A DNA stretch of 44,948 bases from a virus, in IMG/VR virus record IMGVR_UViG_3300037261_000140, positions 1 through 44,948 of that record; one strand, 5' to 3'. Shown piece by piece: positions 1,901 through 42,347 of this stretch; position 1 is the first letter of the stretch; every line of letters starts with the position of its first letter. The position numbers were made by a program, and so were the translations under genes. Under the pieces are notes generated by a model. It had not been told where the DNA came from. It made no database searches and worked only from the letters and a program-made list of their open reading frames with translations.

Positions 1901-4403
1901 CATTTATTCCAGGAGTGCCAGATGCATTCGCATTACTCGCAACGGCTTTAGCAATTACGTTAAGAGCGGCGGGTCCGCCAAGCATTATTGTTACGCCGTT
2001 ATTGGGTACCTGAGTACCATCGCCAATTGTTAAAGAAATTTGATTTGATGGATTGGCCGTATTCCAATTAGAAATGATAGTACTGATATTTGAAGAACCA
2101 TCAAAAACTAAGGTAACAGATAAACCAATTGTTCCAGGATTGTTGGCCGTAATTAATACAGGACCTTCAGCATTAGATAATATTCCGAGGTAATAAGCGT
2201 AAGTGAATCCAGTTGTTCCACCAAGGTCTACGCTACCATTAGAGTCAATTCGGAATGCCTCAACAGCGGTAACTGATCCAACAGGAGTGGTTTTGAAACT
2301 GATGTATGTTGGCATTGAAGTGTCAGTGAATGTTCCATCTGCAATAAATGATATAGATGCAGTTGAAGCGGCAGCAAATGCCGTTGCGCCATATCCTCTA
2401 CCGGAAATAAATCCTAAAGTGTTTCCTGAAATAGCAGCCGTAGGAGAAAGTAAAGTGCCGTTTGCATAACGACCTCTAAAACCAACTGAAGAACTGTACC
2501 CAGTTGCTTGGATAGCTTGCGTGCTACCAGAAGTATCTACGATGTCTATTGGTGAGCTAGGCGTCAGAGTACCAATACCGATTTGAGAAACATTGACAAT
2601 TGCATTATTGCCCATGTTAAGATTTGCAGATTGTATGCCTAAATTTTGTAAAGATGAATTAATGACATTGCTTGCGAGAGTGGTACCCAGCAAGACGTTG
2701 GCATCTACGGCTCCAAAAGCTTGAAGGAGGTACTTTCCAGCGATAGCGTTGTATACTATTGTCTGACCATCTGTTGGAGCAACGGCGGTAACACCTACTC
2801 CTTGAATCGCAACAACTGTAGCGACTTCAGATTGAGATCCCGATGCTAAGGCGGTAGTTACGTCGCCAGTTAATTGATTGATTGCATTTACTGTTACGGC
2901 ACCTTGAGCATTATTGACAGAACTAACTCCAGCAACAGGAGAAGCTAATTGCCATTTTCCAACTGACGCAGAATAAATGATCAGGTCGCCTATTTGGAAA
3001 TTGTGCATTGATGGATCAGTTAAACCAGCAACAGGACCTACAAAAGTTGCAGATACATAGTAGACATACCCATTTGTTCCAGTGCCATCAGAGAGTGCTG
3101 GAGTATTTGTGCTAGGATTCCAAGCACCTTGATATTCCATAACCGTTAATGGTAAATATGAAAGAGGAATTTTAGCAGAACCATCCAAAGGAGCATAGCC
3201 GTTAGCTATTCCTTTGTTAGATGTTAATTCGTAACTTCCGGCTGCTTGTTTACCAGAGATGTCTATGAATGCAGTTACTAAATTAGAATTGATACTTGCA
3301 AGGTCCGTAAGAAGACTTGTAACTTGTGATTCTGCAATTTGAATTGGAGCACTAGATGCCGCAGTAATTAAACCTTTGCCATTAACTGTAAAAATTGCAG
3401 AGTTTGATGCAGAACCAAAAGATCCAACATTTGTGTTGACCGTAGCCAATGTGAAAACAACATTGCCAGGACCGACAGCAGTTCCATCGCCAGTCAATTG
3501 AGTAATTGCACTGACAGAGGAGTTATCGATTTGGCTTTGCAGTTTACCGAATGCAGTTAAAATAGAATCTGTTGCGAGAACCGTAGAATCAGCACCGATA
3601 ACAAACCCAGTCAATAATTTACTGGTAACAACCGATGCCGCAATAGTATTTGATCCTATAGGACCAGTTACATCTCCGGCTAAAGTTCCGCCGCCGCCGC
3701 CCGGAGGAGGAGCCCAGGTTCCATCGGCTCGTAAAAAGTTTGTAGTGCCTCCACCTGAGAAGGGAACTAAACCATTGAGGAGTGCTGTAAATATAGGCAG
3801 AAATGAATTGACTTGAGCGCCAGTCAGGTCTGCTTCATTGGCAGTGGAAGCCGTGCTATTACCTTTGATGGTAAAAGCAGGAGCTTGTGCCAATTTTGCA
3901 TTTGTGACAACATTGGGTTGGATTGTGGCCGTCGCACTTCCAGGACCAGTGGCAACTATGTCGCCTATCAGTCCAGTGAGTGTAGAACCACCGCCGAAAA
4001 AGTTTCCTTGGATAGTCCAAGTGCCATTGATATTTGAATAATAATTTAAGCTGACATTATCGACATAAAAATCGCCGGCTTGTCCCAGACTTGGATCAGG
4101 AGCACCGTTGCCAGTGTAAATTTGACTTCCATTAGGAAAGTCTTTAAGAGAAATTTGGCCTGTGATAGGGTTGTAACCAATTGGCCCGATAGCGTTTATG
4201 GCGCTCCGTGCCAAAGCATTACTGAAATATTTATTCGTGACACCCTGCGGAATATTATCGGTGGTAAGTTTAATGGCCCCGGTAAAGCCCTGGACTGAGC
4301 GAACCGCACTGTTAAGGGCTATGTCATTTAAAAGTTCATTGGCGGCTGTCACATCGCCCATGATGAGTCTTAAAATATGCTGAGTACGAGGACTAATTGC
4401 CAT
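1..4403 (-). CDS. giant glycine-rich tail fibre / adhesin, incomplete at left edge
   Basis: On the minus strand one uninterrupted frame runs from ATG at 4403 to the window edge, giving over 1460 codons with no stop, so the C terminus is missing. An AAGGTG ribosome site lies four bases before the ATG. The N-terminal third (about 4403-2000) looks like a phage tail fibre: phrases such as TGDVTG, FLRADGTW, PLDGSAKIPLSYLP and NMGNNAIVNVSQIGIGT are typical of fibre and needle proteins that attach by the N terminus. Around 2175-1975 there is a beta domain (ITANNPGTIG, WNTANPSN, GDGTQVP) that recurs in the 36841-38037 product. From about 1900 to 1 the protein is glycine-rich repeats with short beta-like triplets between GG pairs (GGAVTITGG style), as in polyglycine or beta-helical phage adhesins. 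Expected role: distal host recognition. It has its own AATCTT box and follows a terminator, so it is probably a separate late transcript. Confidence 0.85.
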   Translation of the reverse strand, partial: MAISPRTQHILRLIMGDVTAANELLNDIALNSAVRSVQGFTGAIKLTTDNIPQGVTNKYFSNALARSAINAIGPIGYNPITGQISLKDFPNGSQIYTGNGAPDPSLGQAGDFYVDNVSLNYYSNINGTWTIQGNFFGGGSTLTGLIGDIVATGPGSATATIQPNVVTNAKLAQAPAFTIKGNSTASTANEADLTGAQVNSFLPIFTALLNGLVPFSGGGTTNFLRADGTWAPPPGGGGGTLAGDVTGPIGSNTIAASVVTSKLLTGFVIGADSTVLATDSILTAFGKLQSQIDNSSVSAITQLTGDGTAVGPGNVVFTLATVNTNVGSFGSASNSAIFTVNGKGLITAASSAPIQIAESQVTSLLTDLASINSNLVTAFIDISGKQAAGSYELTSNKGIANGYAPLDGSAKIPLSYLPLTVMEYQGAWNPSTNTPALSDGTGTNGYVYYVSATFVGPVAGLTDPSMHNFQIGDLIIYSASVGKWQLASPVAGVSSVNNAQGAVTVNAINQLTGDVTTALASGSQSEVATVVAIQGVGVTAVAPTDGQTIVYNAIAGKYLLQAFGAVDANVLLGTTLASNVINSSLQNLGIQSANLNMGNNAIVNVSQIGIGTLTPSSPIDIVDTSGSTQAIQATGYSSSVGFRGRYANGTLLSPTAAISGNTLGFISGRGYGATAFAAASTASISFIADGTFTDTSMPTYISFKTTPVGSVTAVEAFRIDSNGSVDLGGTTGFTYAYYLGILSNAEGPVLITANNPGTIGLSVTLVFDGSSNISTIISNWNTANPSNQISLTIGDGTQVPNNGVTIMLGGPAALNVIAKAVASNANASGTPGINAAQFTGGTGGNTTIASTGTGGAGGGYSFTGGNGGIASAAVNAKGGTGGGYLVTPGNGGNAVEAGALLNTGGNGGSTIIQSGNGGNAANGTTNNSGSGGAISLLAGSGGQGTNGAIGGIITLTSGAGGIPNGVGAGGAGGTLNLNGGTGGVGSTTSANGGAVNITGGPGGSTNPNGSGGAVNISGGTPSQNTSGGTGGAVTITGANSAGDNTVSRNGGAVTIVAGNSSGNSAGAAITATAGVGGAGTGTAGVAGGNIVLTGGTGGIGSATSGGGGLLTFNGGVGGAGVAGGAGGAVNINGGVGGSGSSSSGAGGLVTIAGGAAGAGGSGNAAGGVTIRGGVADPVTGAGSGGPGGTVTITGSAATGDQTANYAGGNVTITAGLSFGSSAGGAITGTAGAGGQGLALTGAAGGGVTWTTGAGGIGTNVGGAGGTLGLVGGAGGIGTGTVGGAGGAFVWTAGIGGAGGTTSGNGGGITITSGAPGGGVNGGGSAGAISITGGTANANGSGGGSVTITGSSAAGTDAVSFPGGSVTLNAGKSQGASVGGAIGGTAGIGGAGLAGAGANGGAVTWTAGAGGIGSSTSGNGGAMTLTAGAGGAGVVGGAGGTAALTGGAGGAGSTSGGNGGAVTVAGCV

Positions 4404-4436
4404 TATACACCTTGACTTGTTGAAAACGGATCTTAG

Positions 4437-4448
4437 CTATAAGATTAC
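4437..4448 (-). promoter_or_regulatory. AATCTT box before tail fibre gene
   Basis: Minus strand reads GTAATCTTATAG, 34 bases before the fibre ATG and just after the terminator of the upstream gene. It matches the motif found before nine other late-type units in this window. The terminator-then-box order argues for a new transcription start here. Confidence 0.5.
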
Positions 4449-4459
4449 TTCTAAAAGCA

Positions 4460-4494
4460 AAAATGCCGTTAAACTATTGATTTAACGGCATTTT
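4460..4494 (-). terminator. intrinsic terminator after the 175-aa fibre gene
   Basis: A perfect 14-bp inverted repeat (4460-4473 with 4481-4494) encloses a 7-base loop. On the minus strand the stem ends in a T-rich tract (ATTTTTGCTTTT), so it stops leftward transcription after the gene ending at 4523. The A-rich 5' arm gives a weaker T tract on the plus strand. Confidence 0.85.
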
Positions 4495-4522
4495 ATAATC
4501 ATTGTTTAATAATATTCAAGGG

Positions 4523-5050
4523 TTATCTCTTAACGGCCACCAATACAACGGCGCCCGGTCCCATGTCAGCAGAGTAAATTATACTGATTCCATTGGTTAC
4601 CTGAGAAGACCAGCCTAAAATGGGCAGATTTGCTCCGCCTTTGGTTTTTTGCGATACTGAAAGGATAGTGTCCGTGGACAATAGGCCCGTTACAGTTACC
4701 GCCTCTACAGCGGCGCCTCCGACTGTTGGATTGGAGGTAAATGCTAAAATATTGAAACTGACACCAACGCCGGCAATTGCCGTGTCTACATAACTTTTGG
4801 TCGCCGCATCCTGGGCAGAAGTAGGGTTAGCAAGAGCATTGATTTGAAAGGTACCCATGTTAAGGGCAGTATTCAGTGTAGGAGACACCAAGTTGTTAAG
4901 CGACGTATTGGCGCCGGCAGATTCGATGGAATTGACCATCTCAATTAGAAGATCGCCTAAACCAATATGGCCGGAAGTAGAGCTTTGGCTACGATATACC
5001 CCATTTAGGGCAGATTGAACCAATGTTAAATCAGTTAAAAGCTGTGTCAT
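4523..5050 (-). CDS. short tail fibre-like structural protein (175 aa)
   Basis: The middle of the protein carries a phage fibre signature: NMGTFQINALANP followed by DAATKSYVDTAIAG, the N-x-I-x-L-x-x-P...D-A-x-x-K-x-Y-V-D pattern common in tail fibre and collar fibre proteins. The N terminus (GHIGLGDLLIEM) resembles the N terminus of the 22091-22498 product (GDIGLGSHLLQL), suggesting a shared attachment module. The C-terminal half is beta-rich (AVTVTGLL, TKGGANLPILGW) and would form a small distal domain. It lies directly after the tail tube gene and before the large fibre gene, and a strong terminator follows. Likely a short fibre or adaptor; the fold assignment is inferred from the motif only. 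Confidence 0.65.
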   Translation of the reverse strand: MTQLLTDLTLVQSALNGVYRSQSSTSGHIGLGDLLIEMVNSIESAGANTSLNNLVSPTLNTALNMGTFQINALANPTSAQDAATKSYVDTAIAGVGVSFNILAFTSNPTVGGAAVEAVTVTGLLSTDTILSVSQKTKGGANLPILGWSSQVTNGISIIYSADMGPGAVVLVAVKR

Positions 5051-25421: not shown

Positions 25422-26294
25422 TTATTTAAGTAGGTGGCTAATAGTTTCAAATCCGGCTTTATTCAAATAAAATTCGTTGATCGCATCTCTGTCAGATTTA
25501 GCCAGAGTAGGATCGGATGCTTTTTTGTTCAAAACTTGAGTAATCTCGCTCTTCGTGAGTTCAACTGTTTCGCTGTGTCCGCCTTCACCTTTGGCCAACA
25601 CTTCGATTTGCGTAATGGCTTTCTGGGGAGGAGGAGTCGTTTTCTCGACAAATTTGGTCAAGAAAGCAGAGACCGCGTTGAGTTGATTTTTACTGTCTTC
25701 GTTTTCCTTTTTAAGGGCTTCGATTTCAGACTTCAAAAGATCGGCTTCACTCTTGTTCATTTTCTCTCCATTAGCAGCTGAATCAGCTGATTTTGCGCCC
25801 GGCGAATTGCTCGGAGGGCATTTCTCAATTTCTGCCTTATTAAGGACAGGTTGAGGGGTTTCAGACGCTTCTGATTTTTTCCCTTCACTATTATGAGGGG
25901 CACTCGCCTCGATTTTGCCAGTTTCGGTTTTATTCAAAACAGGTTGGGGAGTTTCAGACGCTTCAGATTTGGGACCAGGAGAACCCTTTGGAGGATTCGC
26001 ACTCATTTCCCCACCATTTCCATCGGCTTTCGCGAGATTGCCGTCTTCCATGGCTTTAGCGATTGAGGCTTGATGGAAAGCTAATTCACCCTTAGACATA
26101 GACTTGTACATCTTATGGGCAGCGGCTTTATCATCTTCGTCGTAATCGCAATCTTCTTTCTTTTCAATCACAGCAGTTGGCTCAGATTTATTGAAAGAAG
26201 CAACAGATTCAGCTTCAGCTTTTTTGAGTTCGGCTGAAAACTGTTTCTCGATTTGACTTACGAGACCTACTAATTGCTCTTTTGTGTATGCCAT
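25422..26294 (-). CDS. capsid scaffold-like protein with KSE repeats
   Basis: 290 aa just upstream of the capsid gene, the usual place for the scaffold. It is charged and largely helical or disordered: an N-terminal helix (YTKEQLVGLVSQIEKQFSAELKKAEAESVASF), an acidic Lys/Glu region, a coiled coil at about 180-215 (KMNKSEADLLKSEIEALKKENEDSKNQLNAVSAFLTKFVEK) and a C-terminal helical tail (INEFYLNKAGFETISHLLK) that could bind capsid protein. The segment KSEASETPQPVLNK occurs twice (coding 25837-25877 and 25930-25970). There are six KSE tripeptides. Scaffolds are usually cut out by the prohead protease, so these may be processing sites (inference). Confidence in the scaffold role rests on position and composition. 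Confidence 0.75.
   Translation of the reverse strand: MAYTKEQLVGLVSQIEKQFSAELKKAEAESVASFNKSEPTAVIEKKEDCDYDEDDKAAAHKMYKSMSKGELAFHQASIAKAMEDGNLAKADGNGGEMSANPPKGSPGPKSEASETPQPVLNKTETGKIEASAPHNSEGKKSEASETPQPVLNKAEIEKCPPSNSPGAKSADSAANGEKMNKSEADLLKSEIEALKKENEDSKNQLNAVSAFLTKFVEKTTPPPQKAITQIEVLAKGEGGHSETVELTKSEITQVLNKKASDPTLAKSDRDAINEFYLNKAGFETISHLLK
25837..25971 (-). repeat. direct repeat inside the scaffold gene
   Basis: Two copies of a roughly 42-base coding unit, at about 25837-25877 and 25930-25970, encode the same 14 residues (KSEASETPQPVLNK). They differ at several synonymous positions, so the duplication is not recent or the protein sequence is under selection. Confidence 0.7.
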
Positions 26295-26990: not shown

Positions 26991-26994
26991 TGAT

Positions 26995-28722
26995 ATGGCC
27001 ACTAAAATTCACGGCATCGCCGCTTCAGAAAATATCGATTCATCCGGAGAACGAATAATCATCGCAGGCATGGATATTTCCAGCCTTGAAAAAGATGGTG
27101 TTTTTAACTGGGAACATAAAAGCGATCAACCTGCCCAAGTAGTGGGTAAGATATTGAAAGCAAAGAAGATTTTCTCAGAAAAAGACTGTGAAAATGACGA
27201 TGAAAGAGGCTTCTGGGAGAAATGCGGAGTTCCATTCGTCTATGTAATGGGCGAACTGCTCGATGACTATAAAGACTCAGCCAAAGAAGTCGCTGCCCAG
27301 TTCCGATACGACCATGACCATAAAGACCGCGACGAGCGCAGTATCAGCAACTTCTCTATAGAAGGCGCCAAAATCGATAAAGTTGGCATGGATATTCCCC
27401 ATTCCATCGCCCGGAAGGTCACAATTACGGTCCATCCATGCAATAAAGTGGCCGTGGCGTCAATCAAACTTGACAAAAAAGACAAAAAGTCCAATGATAT
27501 CAACTCTCTTTTCAAAACAGAGTCTATTGAGATCGAACTGTGCAGAACAGAAGAACTTGGATTTATTAATTTGGCCAAAAAGGAAGATCCCGCCGCACAC
27601 GCAAAAGCTTTAGGGGTAGCACCGATGAAAAAAGACGATCAAGACCTGGCCGGCACCACGGGCGCTCCCGCAGGTGTGGCCAAAAAAGTGCTTCCAAAAC
27701 TTCAAAATCAACAAATCACCCCCGGATCGACCCCTCTCATTAAAGACGGCGAAGCCGGCAAGAAACTTGGCACCACGAGTGGCGGCCATGACATTCTGAG
27801 TCATAAGCGGGTCCATGAATATGGAGCCCTTTCTCCCAAAGATCACCTTGAAGCTGCGAATTTCCATTTTAATGCCGCGAGCGGCGCCGGGAACCCCAAA
27901 GATGGCGCCCATCATATGGATAAAGTCAGACTTCACATGTCCGCCCATAAAACAGCCTCTCGCCGGGAAGAAAGACTTCATCCCTATGAAAGCGAAAGAC
28001 TCATTAAAGCCCTAGACGCTGGTTCCGGCATGGCGGCCCCTTCTAACCTGGCCGGCGGTGCCGCCCTCGGTTCGGAAAGCTTTAGCCTTGATCGAAAAAT
28101 GAAAAAGAATCCAATGTTGGCCCGTGCCGAAGAAGAATATCAGTCCTGGGACAAAAAAGAAGAATTCGTTAACTTCATGCAGCAAAAAGTGCCCGGAATG
28201 AAAAAGGGCGAAATTGACGCTATTGGTCGAACCGTTGCCTTGAGAAAAGGTATGGCCGACTCGAAAAAATGGCTCGCCAAATTTGACTTAAGCGGCGAAG
28301 GTAATCGTCCAGGCGGTAGCTTTGTTATGAAAGATGAAGAATTAGACAAGTCTGCCCAAAGACATCCTCCTAAGACCCCCGGAACCAAAAGTCCCACTGT
28401 TAGACAAACCAGAGAAAAAGGCACAATGGAGCAAAAAGGCGTTCATATGCCTCCTTTGGGCCAATCTGCCGGCGGACGCAGTGTTATGGGAGCCTTTGTT
28501 GATGACAAAGACAAATACGCTACACGTCACGCGGGGCACACCTTAAAAGAATTGAAAAATATGCCTAAGCCAAATCTCCCGAAGTCCGAAGAAATGAATA
28601 AATCCTCGGATATTATGATGCTTAACGAAAAAAGCATGTCTTCAATGAAAAAATTCTTCTCTAAAGCCATAGATGACCAGGCCAAAGAGTTAAAAACCAA
28701 AGATATCAACGATCTCTGTTAA
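26995..28722 (+). CDS. prohead (capsid maturation) protease with long C-terminal extension
   Basis: 575 aa from ATG 26995; an upstream TTG in the same frame (26941) would lie before the promoter and is rejected. Residues 1-160 match the T4 gp21/SPO1-type prohead serine protease: GERIIIAGMDISSLEKDGVFNWEH (catalytic His 41), VVGKILKAKKIF, FVYVMGEL, and SISNFSIEGAKI (catalytic Ser 121), then SIARKVTITVHPCNKVAVA. It cuts scaffold and head proteins during maturation. Residues 160-575 are hydrophilic, Lys/Gly-rich and without a clear domain except a possible helical His-rich block (LEAANFHFNAASGAG, MDKVRLHMSAH). The C terminus carries MPKPNLPKSEEMNKSS (28561-28590), the same motif as in the 501-aa protein. 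It is encoded opposite to the leftward head genes. A structured RNA begins at its stop codon. Confidence 0.85.
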   Translation: MATKIHGIAASENIDSSGERIIIAGMDISSLEKDGVFNWEHKSDQPAQVVGKILKAKKIFSEKDCENDDERGFWEKCGVPFVYVMGELLDDYKDSAKEVAAQFRYDHDHKDRDERSISNFSIEGAKIDKVGMDIPHSIARKVTITVHPCNKVAVASIKLDKKDKKSNDINSLFKTESIEIELCRTEELGFINLAKKEDPAAHAKALGVAPMKKDDQDLAGTTGAPAGVAKKVLPKLQNQQITPGSTPLIKDGEAGKKLGTTSGGHDILSHKRVHEYGALSPKDHLEAANFHFNAASGAGNPKDGAHHMDKVRLHMSAHKTASRREERLHPYESERLIKALDAGSGMAAPSNLAGGAALGSESFSLDRKMKKNPMLARAEEEYQSWDKKEEFVNFMQQKVPGMKKGEIDAIGRTVALRKGMADSKKWLAKFDLSGEGNRPGGSFVMKDEELDKSAQRHPPKTPGTKSPTVRQTREKGTMEQKGVHMPPLGQSAGGRSVMGAFVDDKDKYATRHAGHTLKELKNMPKPNLPKSEEMNKSSDIMMLNEKSMSSMKKFFSKAIDDQAKELKTKDINDLC

Positions 28723-28882
28723 CTGTGCGATGGTGGATGGACACCTTAGAGGTAGGCGAAAGCCTGGATCGTAGTCATCAGAAACTCTAGAAGTGGGAAC
28801 CGTCGTATGACTACGGACGGTCCCAGAGCCGGCATTAAAACCCGGTACACAGTTAGGACCCGCCAGTGATGGCGGGTTTTTT
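28720..28882 (+). ncRNA. structured RNA with pseudoknot after the protease stop codon
   Basis: An outer 8-bp helix (28720-28727 with 28848-28855) starts in the stop codon. Inside are two small hairpins (ACCT/AGGT at 28743-28753, and AGGC-GAAA-GCCT at 28754-28765). A long hairpin follows (CTCT, GGG and ACCGTC at 28785-28804 pair with GACGGT, CCC and AGAG at 28816-28828), and nine of its loop bases (28807-28815) pair perfectly with 28770-28778, making a pseudoknot. A CCGG/CCGG hairpin (28829-28845 region) comes next, and a strong terminator closes the element. This many nested perfect helices in 160 bases is unlikely by chance. It may be a regulatory 3' UTR, a riboswitch-like element or a separate small RNA. 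No known family was recognised. Confidence 0.65.
28858..28882 (+). terminator. intrinsic terminator after protease/structured RNA
   Basis: An 8-bp GC-rich stem (ACCCGCCA with TGGCGGGT) with a GTGA loop followed by TTTTTT. Plus-strand directed. Confidence 0.9.
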
Positions 28883-28911: not shown

Positions 28912-28917
28912 GATCGG

Positions 28918-29013
28918 GTCAGGTGCAAGAGTTGAGTTGAGTAGCCGCCAGCTGATCTGTTCTGAAATGTCGATGCGGACGACAAACCTGGCAAATTTTT
29001 GCTAGGGGATAAA
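28918..29013 (+). promoter_or_regulatory. roughly 95-base 5' leader with possible fold
   Basis: The leader can pair TAGC..GCCAG (about 28955-28967) with CTGGC..GCTA (about 28988-29004), which includes bases next to the AGGGG ribosome site, and holds a small GTCG/CGAC hairpin. This could control translation of the 133-aa gene. The pairing is modest and may be accidental. Confidence 0.25.
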
Positions 29014-29415
29014 ATGAAAACACTTAAAGGAACACTCGAATTCTATTTTGCTACCGGAGAACAGCCCCGGCCACAGTTCGTCGGCAAAAAATCCCTAGAT
29101 AAAAATGGTCATATCCAAAATTATGATGAAGTCTATGACATTGCCGTTGGCGATGAGATACGATTTCTTCATCCGGCGCTGAAACGAGAAAAATTCGCAT
29201 CAGTTGACAACAGATTTCACGCATTTCTTTATTATCTGGCCTTAATGTGGGATCAAAAGGTTAAGAAAATGGAAGTTGAATACAAACCTAGTGTTACAAC
29301 TTTTAGTTGGGGTTATCACTCCACAAAATGTCCCCATTGCGGGGCCTATTCTGGCACTCATAATTTACTGTGTAAAGTTATCGCTAATGAAGGGAATCCA
29401 TATGACCGAAAGTGA
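29014..29415 (+). CDS. unrecognised protein with zinc knuckle (133 aa)
   Basis: Starts at ATG 29014 (MKTLKGTLEFYFATGEQ) after AGGGGA; a TTG at 28999 is less likely. The first two thirds are beta-rich with aromatic residues (LTFYFA, YDEVYDIAVGDEIRFLHPALKREKF). The C-terminal part holds CPHCG and a further Cys-x(n)-Cys (SGTHNLLCKV), perhaps a zinc site. The gene overlaps the RyR-domain gene by 14 bases, so translation is probably coupled. Function unknown. Confidence 0.55.
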   Translation: MKTLKGTLEFYFATGEQPRPQFVGKKSLDKNGHIQNYDEVYDIAVGDEIRFLHPALKREKFASVDNRFHAFLYYLALMWDQKVKKMEVEYKPSVTTFSWGYHSTKCPHCGAYSGTHNLLCKVIANEGNPYDRK

Positions 29416-29770
29416 AATTGAAGATGTTGCAGCCGCCTGTCATGAGATAAATCGAGCATATTGCCGGCTTATCGGTGACAATACCCAGGTTTCCTGGAAG
29501 AATGCGCCAGAGTGGCAGAGAACGTCTGCGATCAATGGTGTCAAATTTCACTTGGCCAATCCAAATTCACAGCCTAGCGATTCTCATGAGAGTTGGTCTA
29601 AAGAAAAGGTAGCCGACGGGTGGTCATTTGGCCCGGTAAAAGATCCAGCTAAGAAACAGCATCCATGCCTAGTTCCTTTTTCAAATTTGCCGCTACATCA
29701 ACAGATGAAGGACTTTATCTTTTTGTCTACTGTAAGGGCTGCGGAAGCCATTATTTTGGAGGATTCATGA
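29402..29770 (+). CDS. RyR-domain protein
   Basis: 122 aa from ATG 29402, with GAAGGGAA upstream. The sequence is a nearly complete RyR domain: ACHEINRAYCRLIGD (helix with H-x-x-N-R), VSWKNAPEWQRTSAINGVKFHLAN, HESWSKEKVADGWSFGPVKD (W...K..DGW.(Y/F)GP.KD), then HPCLVPFSNLPLHQQMKDFIFLSTV (HPC.VP(Y/F).LP..Q..KD). In ryanodine receptors these repeats are structural; in bacteria and phages their ligand is unknown, and a nucleotide-related role has been suggested. The stop codon overlaps the ligase ATG (ATGA), indicating coupled expression with the ligase. Confidence 0.8.
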   Translation: MTESEIEDVAAACHEINRAYCRLIGDNTQVSWKNAPEWQRTSAINGVKFHLANPNSQPSDSHESWSKEKVADGWSFGPVKDPAKKQHPCLVPFSNLPLHQQMKDFIFLSTVRAAEAIILEDS

Positions 29771-32233: not shown

Positions 32234-32543
32234 ACTCAAATTCGGTATAGATGCAACTCCCATTCAATGTGACTGGCAAAAGAAGATCTTGGACTTTCCT
32301 AAAGTTGTAAGTTACAATTTTAGGAATTGGGAGTGGATAGTCTACAATGATGTCGGTACGATTGCTGGCACCATGTACGAATTGATCTTTGGAGAATTGA
32401 AAATTTACGACCCCAGAGCCATAGAAGACCACCCTACTTTGGCCGAAATTATCGGCGAATCTAATGATGGAAAATGCGACTGTGGAGGCGATAATAATCC
32501 CGGCTCTGGCGGTCACTGGATTTTTTGCAAAACGAGGAAATGA
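32223..32543 (+). CDS. unrecognised small protein with Cys cluster (106 aa)
   Basis: A GTG at 32223 follows AAAGGG and overlaps the upstream stop; an ATG at 32205 is the alternative but has no ribosome site. The N terminus has a strand FGIDATPIQCDW, then WEWIVYNDVGTIAGTMYELIFGELKIYD. The C terminus (CDCGGDNNPGSGGHWIFCK) has three Cys and one His and could bind a metal. The stop overlaps the possible HNH start (ATGATG). Function unknown. Confidence 0.45.
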   Translation: MRLKLKFGIDATPIQCDWQKKILDFPKVVSYNFRNWEWIVYNDVGTIAGTMYELIFGELKIYDPRAIEDHPTLAEIIGESNDGKCDCGGDNNPGSGGHWIFCKTRK

Positions 32544-33133
32544 TGGAACAGCCAACGCCTGGCCGATCAGGAAAACTGATGGCCACGAATGACCCCTTCA
32601 TTTATGAACTTCTTGCGGACCCAAATTATATAGTAAATTCTGATGGAACAATTTTCACCAGGGTAGCTGAAACGGGCAAAGTTTTCGTGGACCCGAACCA
32701 GTGGCGTGAAGTCAATACTTCTCTTCCTAATGACGAGGGCTATATCGATCTCAAATATCAAAATAGAAGCCTAAGACGCTGCCGAATCATGTATGCGAAG
32801 TTTGTGGGGCCTTTATCTCAAGATCTTATCGTAAATCATAAGAATTCCATCAGGAACGATGATTCTCCTGGCAATTTGGAGCTTATAACGCAATCTGGCA
32901 ATAATTTTCATCGTTTCTTGTCTAAGCCGGCGGTTATAGGGAACTGTGTCTTGACATGGGAAGTCGTAGATCAGATCCGGGCCGAAAAGCTGGCCGGCGC
33001 GACCCATAAAGAACTTACGGTAAAATTTGGTCTTTCAAAGGGCCATATAAGCGAGATAGTGAATCACAAAATTTGGATAAAAAATAAAGAGTACACAGGA
33101 AAACAGAAGACTTGTAAGACAGTTATGATATAA
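32543..33133 (+). CDS. HNH homing endonuclease with C-terminal helix-turn-helix
   Basis: 196 aa from ATG 32543 (an ATG at 32540 is equally possible); GAGGA is upstream. The first part (residues 28-60) is a NUMOD4-like start (IVNSDGTIFTRVAETGK) that matches the N terminus of phage HNH nucleases. NHKNSIRNDDSPGNLELITQSGNNFH (99-124) is the HNH centre: NH-K...D-(S/N)-P-x-NLE. A C-terminal HTH (VDQIRAEKLAGATHKELTVKFGLSKGHISEIVNHKIW) probably reads DNA. Such enzymes cut DNA to spread. It is free-standing here, just before a structured RNA gene, so a link with an intron was considered but is not shown. Confidence 0.85.
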   Translation: MEQPTPGRSGKLMATNDPFIYELLADPNYIVNSDGTIFTRVAETGKVFVDPNQWREVNTSLPNDEGYIDLKYQNRSLRRCRIMYAKFVGPLSQDLIVNHKNSIRNDDSPGNLELITQSGNNFHRFLSKPAVIGNCVLTWEVVDQIRAEKLAGATHKELTVKFGLSKGHISEIVNHKIWIKNKEYTGKQKTCKTVMI

Positions 33134-40574: not shown

Positions 40575-42347
40575 TTATGGTCTTTCGTTTGCTTCGTTAA
40601 CGTATTGATCGGCCTGTGAAGTCGCCCGGCCAAATTCAGCGTCGGCCTTAGCTTCAGACCGTTCAAACATATCATCTCGGGGGTGACAGACGATTCCGCC
40701 GCACGTTCCCAGTATGGTCGCAATGCTTACTGCGTTACTTAAAGATTCCTCCACAGCCTTCGTCGCGTCAAATAGGCCTAATGACTCAGCTTTTCCGTAC
40801 TGCTGATTTTCGATGTCATAAACCAGATGGGGGTTATCTATCAGTTTTCTAAGGACTTCTTGGGCCTGTTCGGGGTTGTAACCGGCGTTATCCAGAAGCT
40901 TATTCGGCAACGCAAGGAGGGACGGCATGAGGACTTCCCTGGCCGGATCTCCGGCCTGAAGCTCAGTCGCCAGCTTAAGGAACATGTCGAGGGCGATACG
41001 GCATCCGCCGGGCAATGCACCGTGTTTGATTGCACTCCGAACGGCGCATACAGCGTCTTCGCATCTATCGTGAGCTTCTTTGAGTTCGCCATTTGATCCC
41101 CCAAAAATGGTCAGTTTTGCAATACCATTGGTTATTTTGCCAAGACGTTCTTCTAACCACATCTTATCGGCATCACTTTCTGCGCCGGCTATCATGGTTT
41201 TTAGTTCATCGGCCCTGATTTCAACAAGTGTCGGATCAGGATTACCAATGACCGTGGAACGAAATCGGTAACATTCAAAAGATTCTGGGCCAACTCCAAG
41301 ATCGCCCATTGTTGCATTTTGGACTGGATCTTTCATGCTGAATACTTTGGCCCCAGTGAAGGCAGCCAAGTCGTGCAAGAAATGGAGTTGACTATTGGTG
41401 AACTGATGCATTGGCGTAACCAGAGGAACAATGTTCATAGTTGTTGGATTATTCATGTTAAACGCCAACTGCGTCAGGACCGACTCACTAAAACCGTGAG
41501 CCACGACAACAATGTTTTTGAAGTCACTGTTGCCTTCTTCTACATACTTTCTACCGATGCCATCGAATAGACCTTGAAAACTTATGAGGTCATTAACCAT
41601 GCCATCATAAAGGATGTACAAAGGTTTTTCTAAATAACAGCGTTGATTACCTTGGTCATTAATGAAGGCCGTATGGAATTTTCCGATACTCTCTTCGTAG
41701 CCCATGGGAATAGGGAATCCATCGATCCGTTCGACCTTGTATCCGGACTTTCCGGATAGTTCGCGAATGGTAACGTGAGAAGAGTCACCGTATCCGACTT
41801 CTTCAAAGGCTTTGATAACGGCATCGGCCATATCGGTGTCACCATTGGCACTGATAGTAGCTACCATCTTGAGCATGCCTTGATTCTCAATTCCAACTGC
41901 GATACTGCGAGATTGGATGTAGGGAATCAAGATCTCTCTGGTGACCTTGTTAATTCTTCGTGCGGCCTTCTGTGGGCTATATTGTGGATTTTCTTTGCAA
42001 AAATCAAATAGGTTGGAAATAATGTTGTAGGATAAAATAGTTGCGGTGGTCGTACCGTCGCCGGCCTCTGAAGCAGTTCTTTTGGCCGCATCACGGGCTT
42101 GCTCGGTAATCAAGTGTTCATATGGATCGATTGCGCCAAGACTATCGAAAACGGTAACACCGTCTTTGGTATTTTTGTTTCCGATACCATTGAAATCACT
42201 CTCGATTAGAATGTTAAAACCGCCGGGGCCAAGTGTTCGACCGACCGCTTCAGAAACTCGATGCATTGTATCGAGAATTTTCTTCTGCAATTGTTTTTTA
42301 TCGATCATGTAAATCTTGGGGGAAGTTTTCGCTTTTCTATAAGACAT
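40575..42347 (-). CDS. groEL-like: GroEL-like chaperonin
   Basis: 590 aa, group I/phage chaperonin. Motifs: SEAVGRTLGPGGFNILIE (nucleotide-binding loop, residues 33-50), KDGVTVFDSLGAIDPYEHLITEQARDAAKRT, GDGTTTATIL (96-105; catalytic Asp region), and a C-terminal equatorial part with GALPGGCRIALDMFLKLA and IVCHPRDDM. The apical part (residues about 190-370) is divergent from host GroEL. No GroES gene is visible here and the C terminus lacks the GGM tail. Giant phages such as EL and OBP encode similar single-ring or double-ring chaperonins that fold phage proteins without GroES. AGGAGG and a TGATATAAG -10 signal lie upstream, divergent to the helicase. The symbol is descriptive only. Confidence 0.85.
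   Translation of the reverse strand: MSYRKAKTSPKIYMIDKKQLQKKILDTMHRVSEAVGRTLGPGGFNILIESDFNGIGNKNTKDGVTVFDSLGAIDPYEHLITEQARDAAKRTASEAGDGTTTATILSYNIISNLFDFCKENPQYSPQKAARRINKVTREILIPYIQSRSIAVGIENQGMLKMVATISANGDTDMADAVIKAFEEVGYGDSSHVTIRELSGKSGYKVERIDGFPIPMGYEESIGKFHTAFINDQGNQRCYLEKPLYILYDGMVNDLISFQGLFDGIGRKYVEEGNSDFKNIVVVAHGFSESVLTQLAFNMNNPTTMNIVPLVTPMHQFTNSQLHFLHDLAAFTGAKVFSMKDPVQNATMGDLGVGPESFECYRFRSTVIGNPDPTLVEIRADELKTMIAGAESDADKMWLEERLGKITNGIAKLTIFGGSNGELKEAHDRCEDAVCAVRSAIKHGALPGGCRIALDMFLKLATELQAGDPAREVLMPSLLALPNKLLDNAGYNPEQAQEVLRKLIDNPHLVYDIENQQYGKAESLGLFDATKAVEESLSNAVSIATILGTCGGIVCHPRDDMFERSEAKADAEFGRATSQADQYVNEANERP

Follow-up and report, generated by a model that had tools for sequence, protein, structure and literature searches.

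In transfer-messenger RNA (tmRNA), a tRNA-like domain is joined to a long pseudoknotted domain that replaces the anticodon arm. Type III antitoxin RNAs and AbiF-type RNAs are small and pseudoknotted, and the engineered 'tRNA scaffold' is the artificial counterpart of a constant frame that holds an insert. Here we describe a phage RNA with a constant, tRNA-resembling frame and an insert, starting from a copy in IMG/VR virus record IMGVR_UViG_3300037261_000140 (positions 1 to 44,948; this whole 44,948-base stretch is called the window). The frame RNA has in common with tmRNA an acceptor stem, a T-arm and a long domain at the place of the anticodon arm, but differs from it in having a D-stem and hypervariable inserts, and in that only 2 of 173 elements encode CCA at the right position. 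With phage tRNAs (RF00005) it shares the 7-bp acceptor, the 2-nt link, the D-arm, the 5-bp T-stem and the zero link back to the acceptor, and frame elements lie near phage tRNA genes above expectation; unlike phage tRNAs, it has no anticodon arm, has an 8-nt T-loop and draws no ARAGORN call.

Type III antitoxin and AbiF RNAs belong to phages or plasmids, and each works with a partner protein; PMC12373285 concerns RNAs of this kind. The frame RNA is likewise small and knotted, but it is tRNA-like, and no adjoining toxin gene or repeat array stood out in the general survey. A tRNA-like fold is also reported for the yjdF riboswitch (PMC9142559), which on that account is likewise a non-tRNA RNA in a tRNA-like shape; in contrast to the riboswitch, which acts in cis on translation, the frame RNAs appear mostly to be free-standing phage genes.

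The structured RNA behind the protease gene

The window phage is contractile-tailed, as judged from protein matches to tail sheath, portal, terminase and major head protein, and the isolated phage closest to it by head protein is Myxococcus phage Mx1 (51%). Elsewhere the window encodes a RyR-domain protein (29402-29767), an HNH endonuclease (32525-33133) and a phage-encoded GroEL-like chaperonin (40575-42347). The parts of the locus discussed here lie on the plus strand. The upstream gene (26992-28722) is prohead-protease-like, matching the annotated Mx1 prohead protease at 42% over 26% of its length. The structured RNA lies directly 3' of it, beginning inside the protease stop codon with the 5' strand of its outer stem, and is followed by an intrinsic terminator (28858-28882), a hairpin with a T-run that is 91% identical over 34 nt to the terminator of the related locus L002. 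The stretch between this terminator and an ORF at 29011 (28915-29010) is probably a structured leader. In four related loci (L008, L009, L011 and L012), an extended -10 box (TGATATAATCTT) lies behind the protease terminator. Between this box and the next gene stands what by eye is a comparable structured leader, which includes a CCCTAGATTGAYGTGGG-like hairpin.

The RNA is closed by an acceptor-like stem, P1, whose 5' strand (28720-28727) forms 8 bp with its 3' strand (28848-28855), a ninth pair, U-G, being possible. Next comes a D-arm-like hairpin (28732-28745) of 4 bp with the loop GATGGA (28736-28741), also present in L002, L106, L010, L015 and the frame family. The P3 strands (28746-28751 and 28785-28790) are paired in the sequence and covary in homologs, and between them lie the P4 hairpin (28754-28765), whose GAAA tetraloop (28758-28761) corresponds to a GNRA-like hairpin in all five knot members, and the motif GAUC with the first pseudoknot strand (28767-28776; strand 28770-28776, extending to 28778 in the window), which is complementary in all five. 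P5 (28795-28824) is a covarying hairpin of 4 + 5 bp with a bulged A and an 11-nt loop, the length and UAU of which are kept in 5/5 members; in the window this loop contains UAU and the second knot strand (28809-28815). The last hairpin (28828-28846) is T-arm-like, with 5 bp and a 9-nt loop; the loop has 8 nt in the family, and L002, the same locus, has the family loop AATCAAGC.

The outer helix of 8 bp, the GAAA tetraloop, the 9-bp loop pairing (28770-28778 with 28807-28815), the hairpin and the terminator described by the first-pass annotation are all present in the sequence; the remaining small hairpins of that annotation are the D-arm-like and T-arm-like ones. The fold is beyond chance: its stability has a z of -3.43, none of 200 dinucleotide shuffles was as stable, and an equally strong pair of crossing helices arose in 2 of 200 shuffles of the window insert. 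The same annotation had the pseudoknot crossing a 13-bp hairpin. The crossing is kept, but the innermost pairs of that hairpin and the 9-bp pseudoknot use common nucleotides and are mutually exclusive when complete. Because all five members keep the 11-nt loop N-UAU-G-NNNNN-G, we draw the hairpin as two stretches of 4 and 5 bp with a bulged A between them. The conserved pseudoknot then has 7 bp, the length found across the family, against 9 bp in the window.

Relatives of the pseudoknot and their covariation

Using the major head protein, we recovered 70 related loci from IMG/VR; the protease as IMG/VR query recovered none. Among the 49 related loci examined that hold the sequence behind the protease stop, a counterpart directly behind the stop occurs in L002 only, and in L015 it stands behind a further small ORF; one additional head-protein locus had no protease stop and was left out of the 49. 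Comparison of the window, L002 and L015 gave a knot descriptor, consisting of a hairpin, GAUC, the knot strand, NNCAG and a hairpin whose 11-nt loop N-UAU-G-NNNNN-G pairs to the first strand. A scan of IMG/VR with this descriptor returned 105 stretches, four of which have a fully complementary knot strand: L152 (identical with L002), L117 (identical with L015) and the new loci L106 and L163. L106 belongs to a relative of the window phage and has the knot after a tRNA-Arg gene. L163 comes from a different, sheath-bearing phage, in which the knot stands right behind the tail-sheath gene and before a tRNA-Met.

The pairings, whose loss in homologous loci the first-pass annotation had named as the finding that would speak against its structure, are kept. 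In the four homologs, taken without the window, 95.1% of 102 cells over 26 pairs are standard pairs, 12 of the 26 pairs change on both sides, and none of 500 shuffles reaches any of five measures. Slid along the four-homolog alignment, the structure is at most 39% paired, a control that favours the structure since it was drawn from the same four sequences, and four sequences are few. P3 covaries in all but one of its 6 pairs; among the knot pairs, 3/7 change on both sides and 4/7 never vary.

A covariance model built from the four homologs, without the window and without the knot (R1), locates the window RNA at 28743-28821; the score is 22.6 bits, and E is 0.0014 over the record and 0.014 over 450 kb. 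The shorter joints of the window put its P3 out of register in the R1 alignment. Run on 50 whole records (of 73), R1 gives seven that reach E 1, the five members and two others; the hits in G034 and G040 (E about 0.95), like those in L313 (E 0.15) and L312 (E 0.43), were taken as chance. R1 detected no further insert of the window type in 100 frame-bearing or related loci. In species genomes a knot search yielded 10 stretches, but the knot strand matched fully in none of them. Wider knot patterns gave, among the matches listed, only the known members and chance matches. L263 has a matching knot strand and was dropped, as it sits in apparent coding sequence. We have very little doubt that the RNA family is real.

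The window and L002 inserts are 52% identical (59% without gaps), and the knot is still kept; in the same comparison the protease is 79-82% identical without gaps and the terminator 91%. Both the L163 RNA and the first RNA of L015 have the knot but no frame, so the knot does not depend on the frame.

A tRNA-like frame shared by many phages

Beside its knot, L015 has a second RNA, in which the outer hairpins known from the window, L002 and L106 surround a different inside; L010 has a further RNA with these outer hairpins. At L015 (minus strand of L304) a frame-less knot thus neighbours a frame with a different insert, and the second RNA starts right behind a promoter-like box (TGATATAG) and is followed by the ribosome-binding site of a 73-aa ORF. 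In L010, positions 3419-4957, about 1 kb upstream of the frame element, are protein-coding, with a product that we take to resemble nicotinamide phosphoribosyltransferase. The order of the frame is a 7-bp stem, 2 nt, a hairpin with loop GAWGGA, the insert, a hairpin with loop NAUCAAGC and, directly, the 3' strand of the stem. The insert occupies the place of the anticodon arm and in the window phage is a three-helix pseudoknot.

Two-arm scans of IMG/VR returned at least 120 stretches at insert gaps of 74-104 and 101 at gaps of 43-73; a few loci occur in both and a few matches are due to chance, for which a rough estimate that assumes a collection size had given fewer than one. In all there are at least about 200 frame-bearing stretches. 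A structural finder applied to the collected loci identified 203 elements, of which 173 differ in their inserts; it identified none in shuffled sequence totalling 5.76 Mb. The links measure 2 nt (acceptor to D-arm) and 0 nt (T-stem to acceptor) in 164/173 elements, and every one of the 173 has an A immediately before the T-stem; the D-loop, the T-loop and some stem bases were search keys, so that their constancy is partly by construction.

P1 was not selected for and the D-stem only partly so in an analysis of 190 elements with distinct inserts, of which 160 have a P1 run of at least 7 pairs. Pairing drops with position, from 177/190 at pair 7 to 143 at pair 8, 110 at pair 9 and 99 at pair 10. 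In these 190 elements, wobbles of the G-U/U-G kind outnumber A-C/C-A by 31 to 11 in P1 and by 25 to 1 in the outer T-stem, an excess expected for an RNA of the element's strand. The 7-nt P1 strands come in 91 different sequences among 173 elements. The T-like loop has 8 nt in the family and 9 in the window (7 in tRNA), and CCA at the tRNA position (N73-CCA) is encoded in 2 of the 173. On the strength of the topology, the 7 + 5 bp, the GG of the D-like loop and the UCAA of the T-like one, we think it probable that the frame has a tRNA-like fold.

The window frame departs from this scheme, with an acceptor-like stem of 8 bp and one nucleotide between the T-arm-like hairpin and the P1 3' strand. 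It matches only a relaxed frame descriptor (longer linker, 9-nt T-loop), which has one match in the window and none in 200 random windows on both strands. L002, the same locus, has the standard form, that is, the GAWGGA D-arm-like hairpin, insert, T-arm-like hairpin and P1 of at least 7 bp. Judged by this comparison of sequences, the window copy is a diverged member of the frame family.

Inserts vary within a nearly constant frame

By common 14-mers, the 173 inserts fall into 162 groups, with the frame nearly constant. Most inserts are 42-110 nt long. Adjacent copies carry unrelated inserts at L369 (and L434), L389 and L539. Two frame elements in one phage region were seen at L369, L434, L389, L539 and L420: the pairs at L369 and L434 have the same P1 and unrelated inserts, those at L389 are only 17 nt apart, and those at L420 are on opposite strands. 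Between L546 and L548 the flanks are 72-74% identical and the insert 59%, which is inside the range of random insert pairs (52% identity, 95th percentile 62%); between L486 and L493 the values are 96-97% and 88%.

Nested folding gives the inserts no advantage in stability over their shuffled versions (-22.0 vs -21.6 kcal/mol); crossing helices are mildly enriched (mean z -0.47, standard error 0.085, n = 171). A tRNA T-loop motif lies inside 8 of 173 inserts against 0.5 expected, and in Pseudanabaena phage Pan3 the insert reaches 34.9 bits with the Rfam tRNA model.

Gene context, promoter and 3' end

For the 149 elements with two callable neighbours (24 others are at contig ends), the neighbours are oriented same/same in 42 cases, same/opposite in 43, opposite/same in 32 and opposite/opposite in 32. 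An ORF above 200 aa overlaps 13/173 elements. Readings of the family as cis-regulatory, as ssDNA or as coding were rejected on this orientation, the wobble asymmetry and the ORF overlap (13/173). The motif TANNNT occurs 11-14 nt before acceptor nucleotide 1 in 38 cases against 4.3 expected (p 1e-23), with a peak at exactly 12 nt (21/170), where a -10 box would lie if transcription began with acceptor nucleotide 1; for the stricter motif TATAAT the count was 13/170 against 4 expected. Most elements, the window included, have no -10 box at the peak position. Downstream terminators are not enriched (11/168 vs 6, 8 and 9 in three controls), so the 3' end may come from processing. The wobble asymmetry and the position of the -10 box point to a stand-alone RNA gene, and the window copy, with a terminator and without the family -10 box, may be co-transcribed with the protease.

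A tRNA gene lies within 600 nt of 21 of the 173 elements, against 5.8 expected. Among 69 proteins beside sampled elements, no neighbour family recurs in more than 2, and no recurring family points to defence. On the minus strand of L106, the order is a tRNA-Arg gene, the element and, just downstream, a further closed structure (ACAACCGTGG...CCACGGTTGT) that terminates in a T-run; small RNA genes may be clustered here.

Distribution and database comparisons

The frame occurs in the isolated phages Caulobacter DMCA, Pseudanabaena Pan3, Alcaligenes QDWS595, Komagataeibacter phiKX1 and phiKX2, and Acidovorax AP1; those of all but phiKX2 are among the elements of the structural finder, and the DMCA element lies near 25,550-25,690 of PQ480021.1. 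None of the isolated-phage matches overlies an annotated feature. At gaps of 75-105 the frame is present in four of 42 records (L002, L010, L106 and DMCA), the 42 being the window, 39 head-protein relatives, L106 and DMCA. At insert gaps of 50-80 it was found in none of 398 Pseudomonadota and none of 282 Myxococcota genomes (680 sampled), and a plasmid scan returned 13 records with single-arm matches.

The first-pass annotation had recognised no known phage RNA class, and this holds against Rfam 15: none of its 4227 families matches the window element at the gathering cut-off, relaxed searches gave sub-threshold matches and neighbouring tRNAs only, and eight other frame loci had no match except one tRNA. 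No Rfam tRNA match covers the elements of the window, L002, L106, L015 or L163. ARAGORN called no tRNA in the 173 elements or in the window and no tmRNA in the window, where Rfam gave no tmRNA match either. Several known classes were weighed and set aside, with no Rfam match and with differing helix order or arms: group I introns, HEARO/omega RNA, hatchet and HDV-like ribozymes, cobalamin-type kissing loops and integron attC sites. In a phage BLAST of the region, the matches listed cover the terminator end of the query only. No description of the frame RNA was found at title and abstract level in the literature covered, which included few subscription papers and almost no preprints. The RNA group is apparently undescribed, as judged from Rfam 15 and this limited literature search.

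Discussion

The computed results comprise the structure and its covariation, the modularity, a wide spread among phages, the wobble asymmetry of an RNA strand and a -10 box positioned for transcription from acceptor nucleotide 1. One account of the window RNA, prompted by its start in the protease stop codon with a terminator after it, is a cis-acting 3' UTR element that would stabilise the protease mRNA, tune it or have effects at the stop codon. L002 keeps the protease-adjacent place and the window has no -10 box at the family position, as this account would have it. Control of the protease mRNA, one option of the first-pass annotation, nevertheless fares poorly: the same knot stands behind the sheath gene in L163, after a tRNA gene in L106 and behind another, small ORF in L015, relatives are oriented almost independently of their neighbours (opposite/opposite in 32/149), and part of the family has its own -10 box. 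We consider a cis role improbable; the mixed orientation and the -10 box favour the separate RNA that the annotation had also allowed for. Chance structure or terminator debris would fit the BLAST matches in other phages that, among those listed, cover the terminator only, but the covariation and the independent recovery by R1 refute it, as do 0/200 shuffles as stable and 0/200 random windows with the relaxed frame, leaving it a practically negligible probability.

A translation-related RNA, which would be charged or bound as tRNA and tmRNA are and would enter ribosomes or enzymes that act on tRNA, would account for the tRNA topology with its 7-bp acceptor and zero link to the T-stem, the closeness to tRNA genes and the tRNA-like character of some inserts; with no anticodon arm, no tmRNA or tRNA call, a correctly placed CCA encoded in 2/173 and a P1 free in sequence, we regard such a role as unlikely. 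The hypervariable inserts, on average no more stable than shuffled as nested folds, could instead belong to a regulatory RNA that pairs with messages of the host or of rival phages, as antisense or sponge. Against this, the window insert is a tight, conserved fold with covariation and crossing helices are enriched in inserts, and we rate this reading as unlikely. The loop-to-strand pairing could also be intermolecular, as in a virion structural or packaging RNA like phi29 pRNA, and some copies lie near structural genes; inserts that differ without limit, mixed neighbours and the lack of an Rfam match make such a role very unlikely.

That the family consists of trans-acting RNA genes is, to judge from sequence comparisons, quite probable. 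For a phage-encoded, stand-alone RNA of two modules, a constant tRNA-like frame and an insert acting in trans, we see about an even chance. The frame would give defined ends and stability, as the minihelix of acceptor and T-arm does for the enzymes that process tRNA. The insert would be the working part, acting in trans by binding or mimicking a factor of the host or of a competitor. Across phages the frame stays while the insert is replaced or diversified, and an arms race with defence would be the likeliest cause of the variability. Insert turnover, exchange between adjacent copies, sites between gene blocks and tRNA look-alikes lead us to suggest, tentatively, that the insert may be a counter-defence decoy. 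A possible, still speculative extension is a tRNA-shaped display frame, a leaderless RNA gene with exchangeable, fast-diversifying inserts (tRNA look-alikes, pseudoknots). Such inserts might act in counter-defence, whether as decoys or as effectors, and the gene would be the RNA equivalent of accessory 'moron' genes.

At least about 200 phage contigs, along with isolated phages, carry in annotation gaps an RNA gene absent from Rfam. With hypervariable inserts held in a constant frame, it would be nature's equivalent of the engineered 'tRNA scaffold'. It suggests a layer of phage-host conflict that works through RNA and is open to study in laboratory phage-host pairs.
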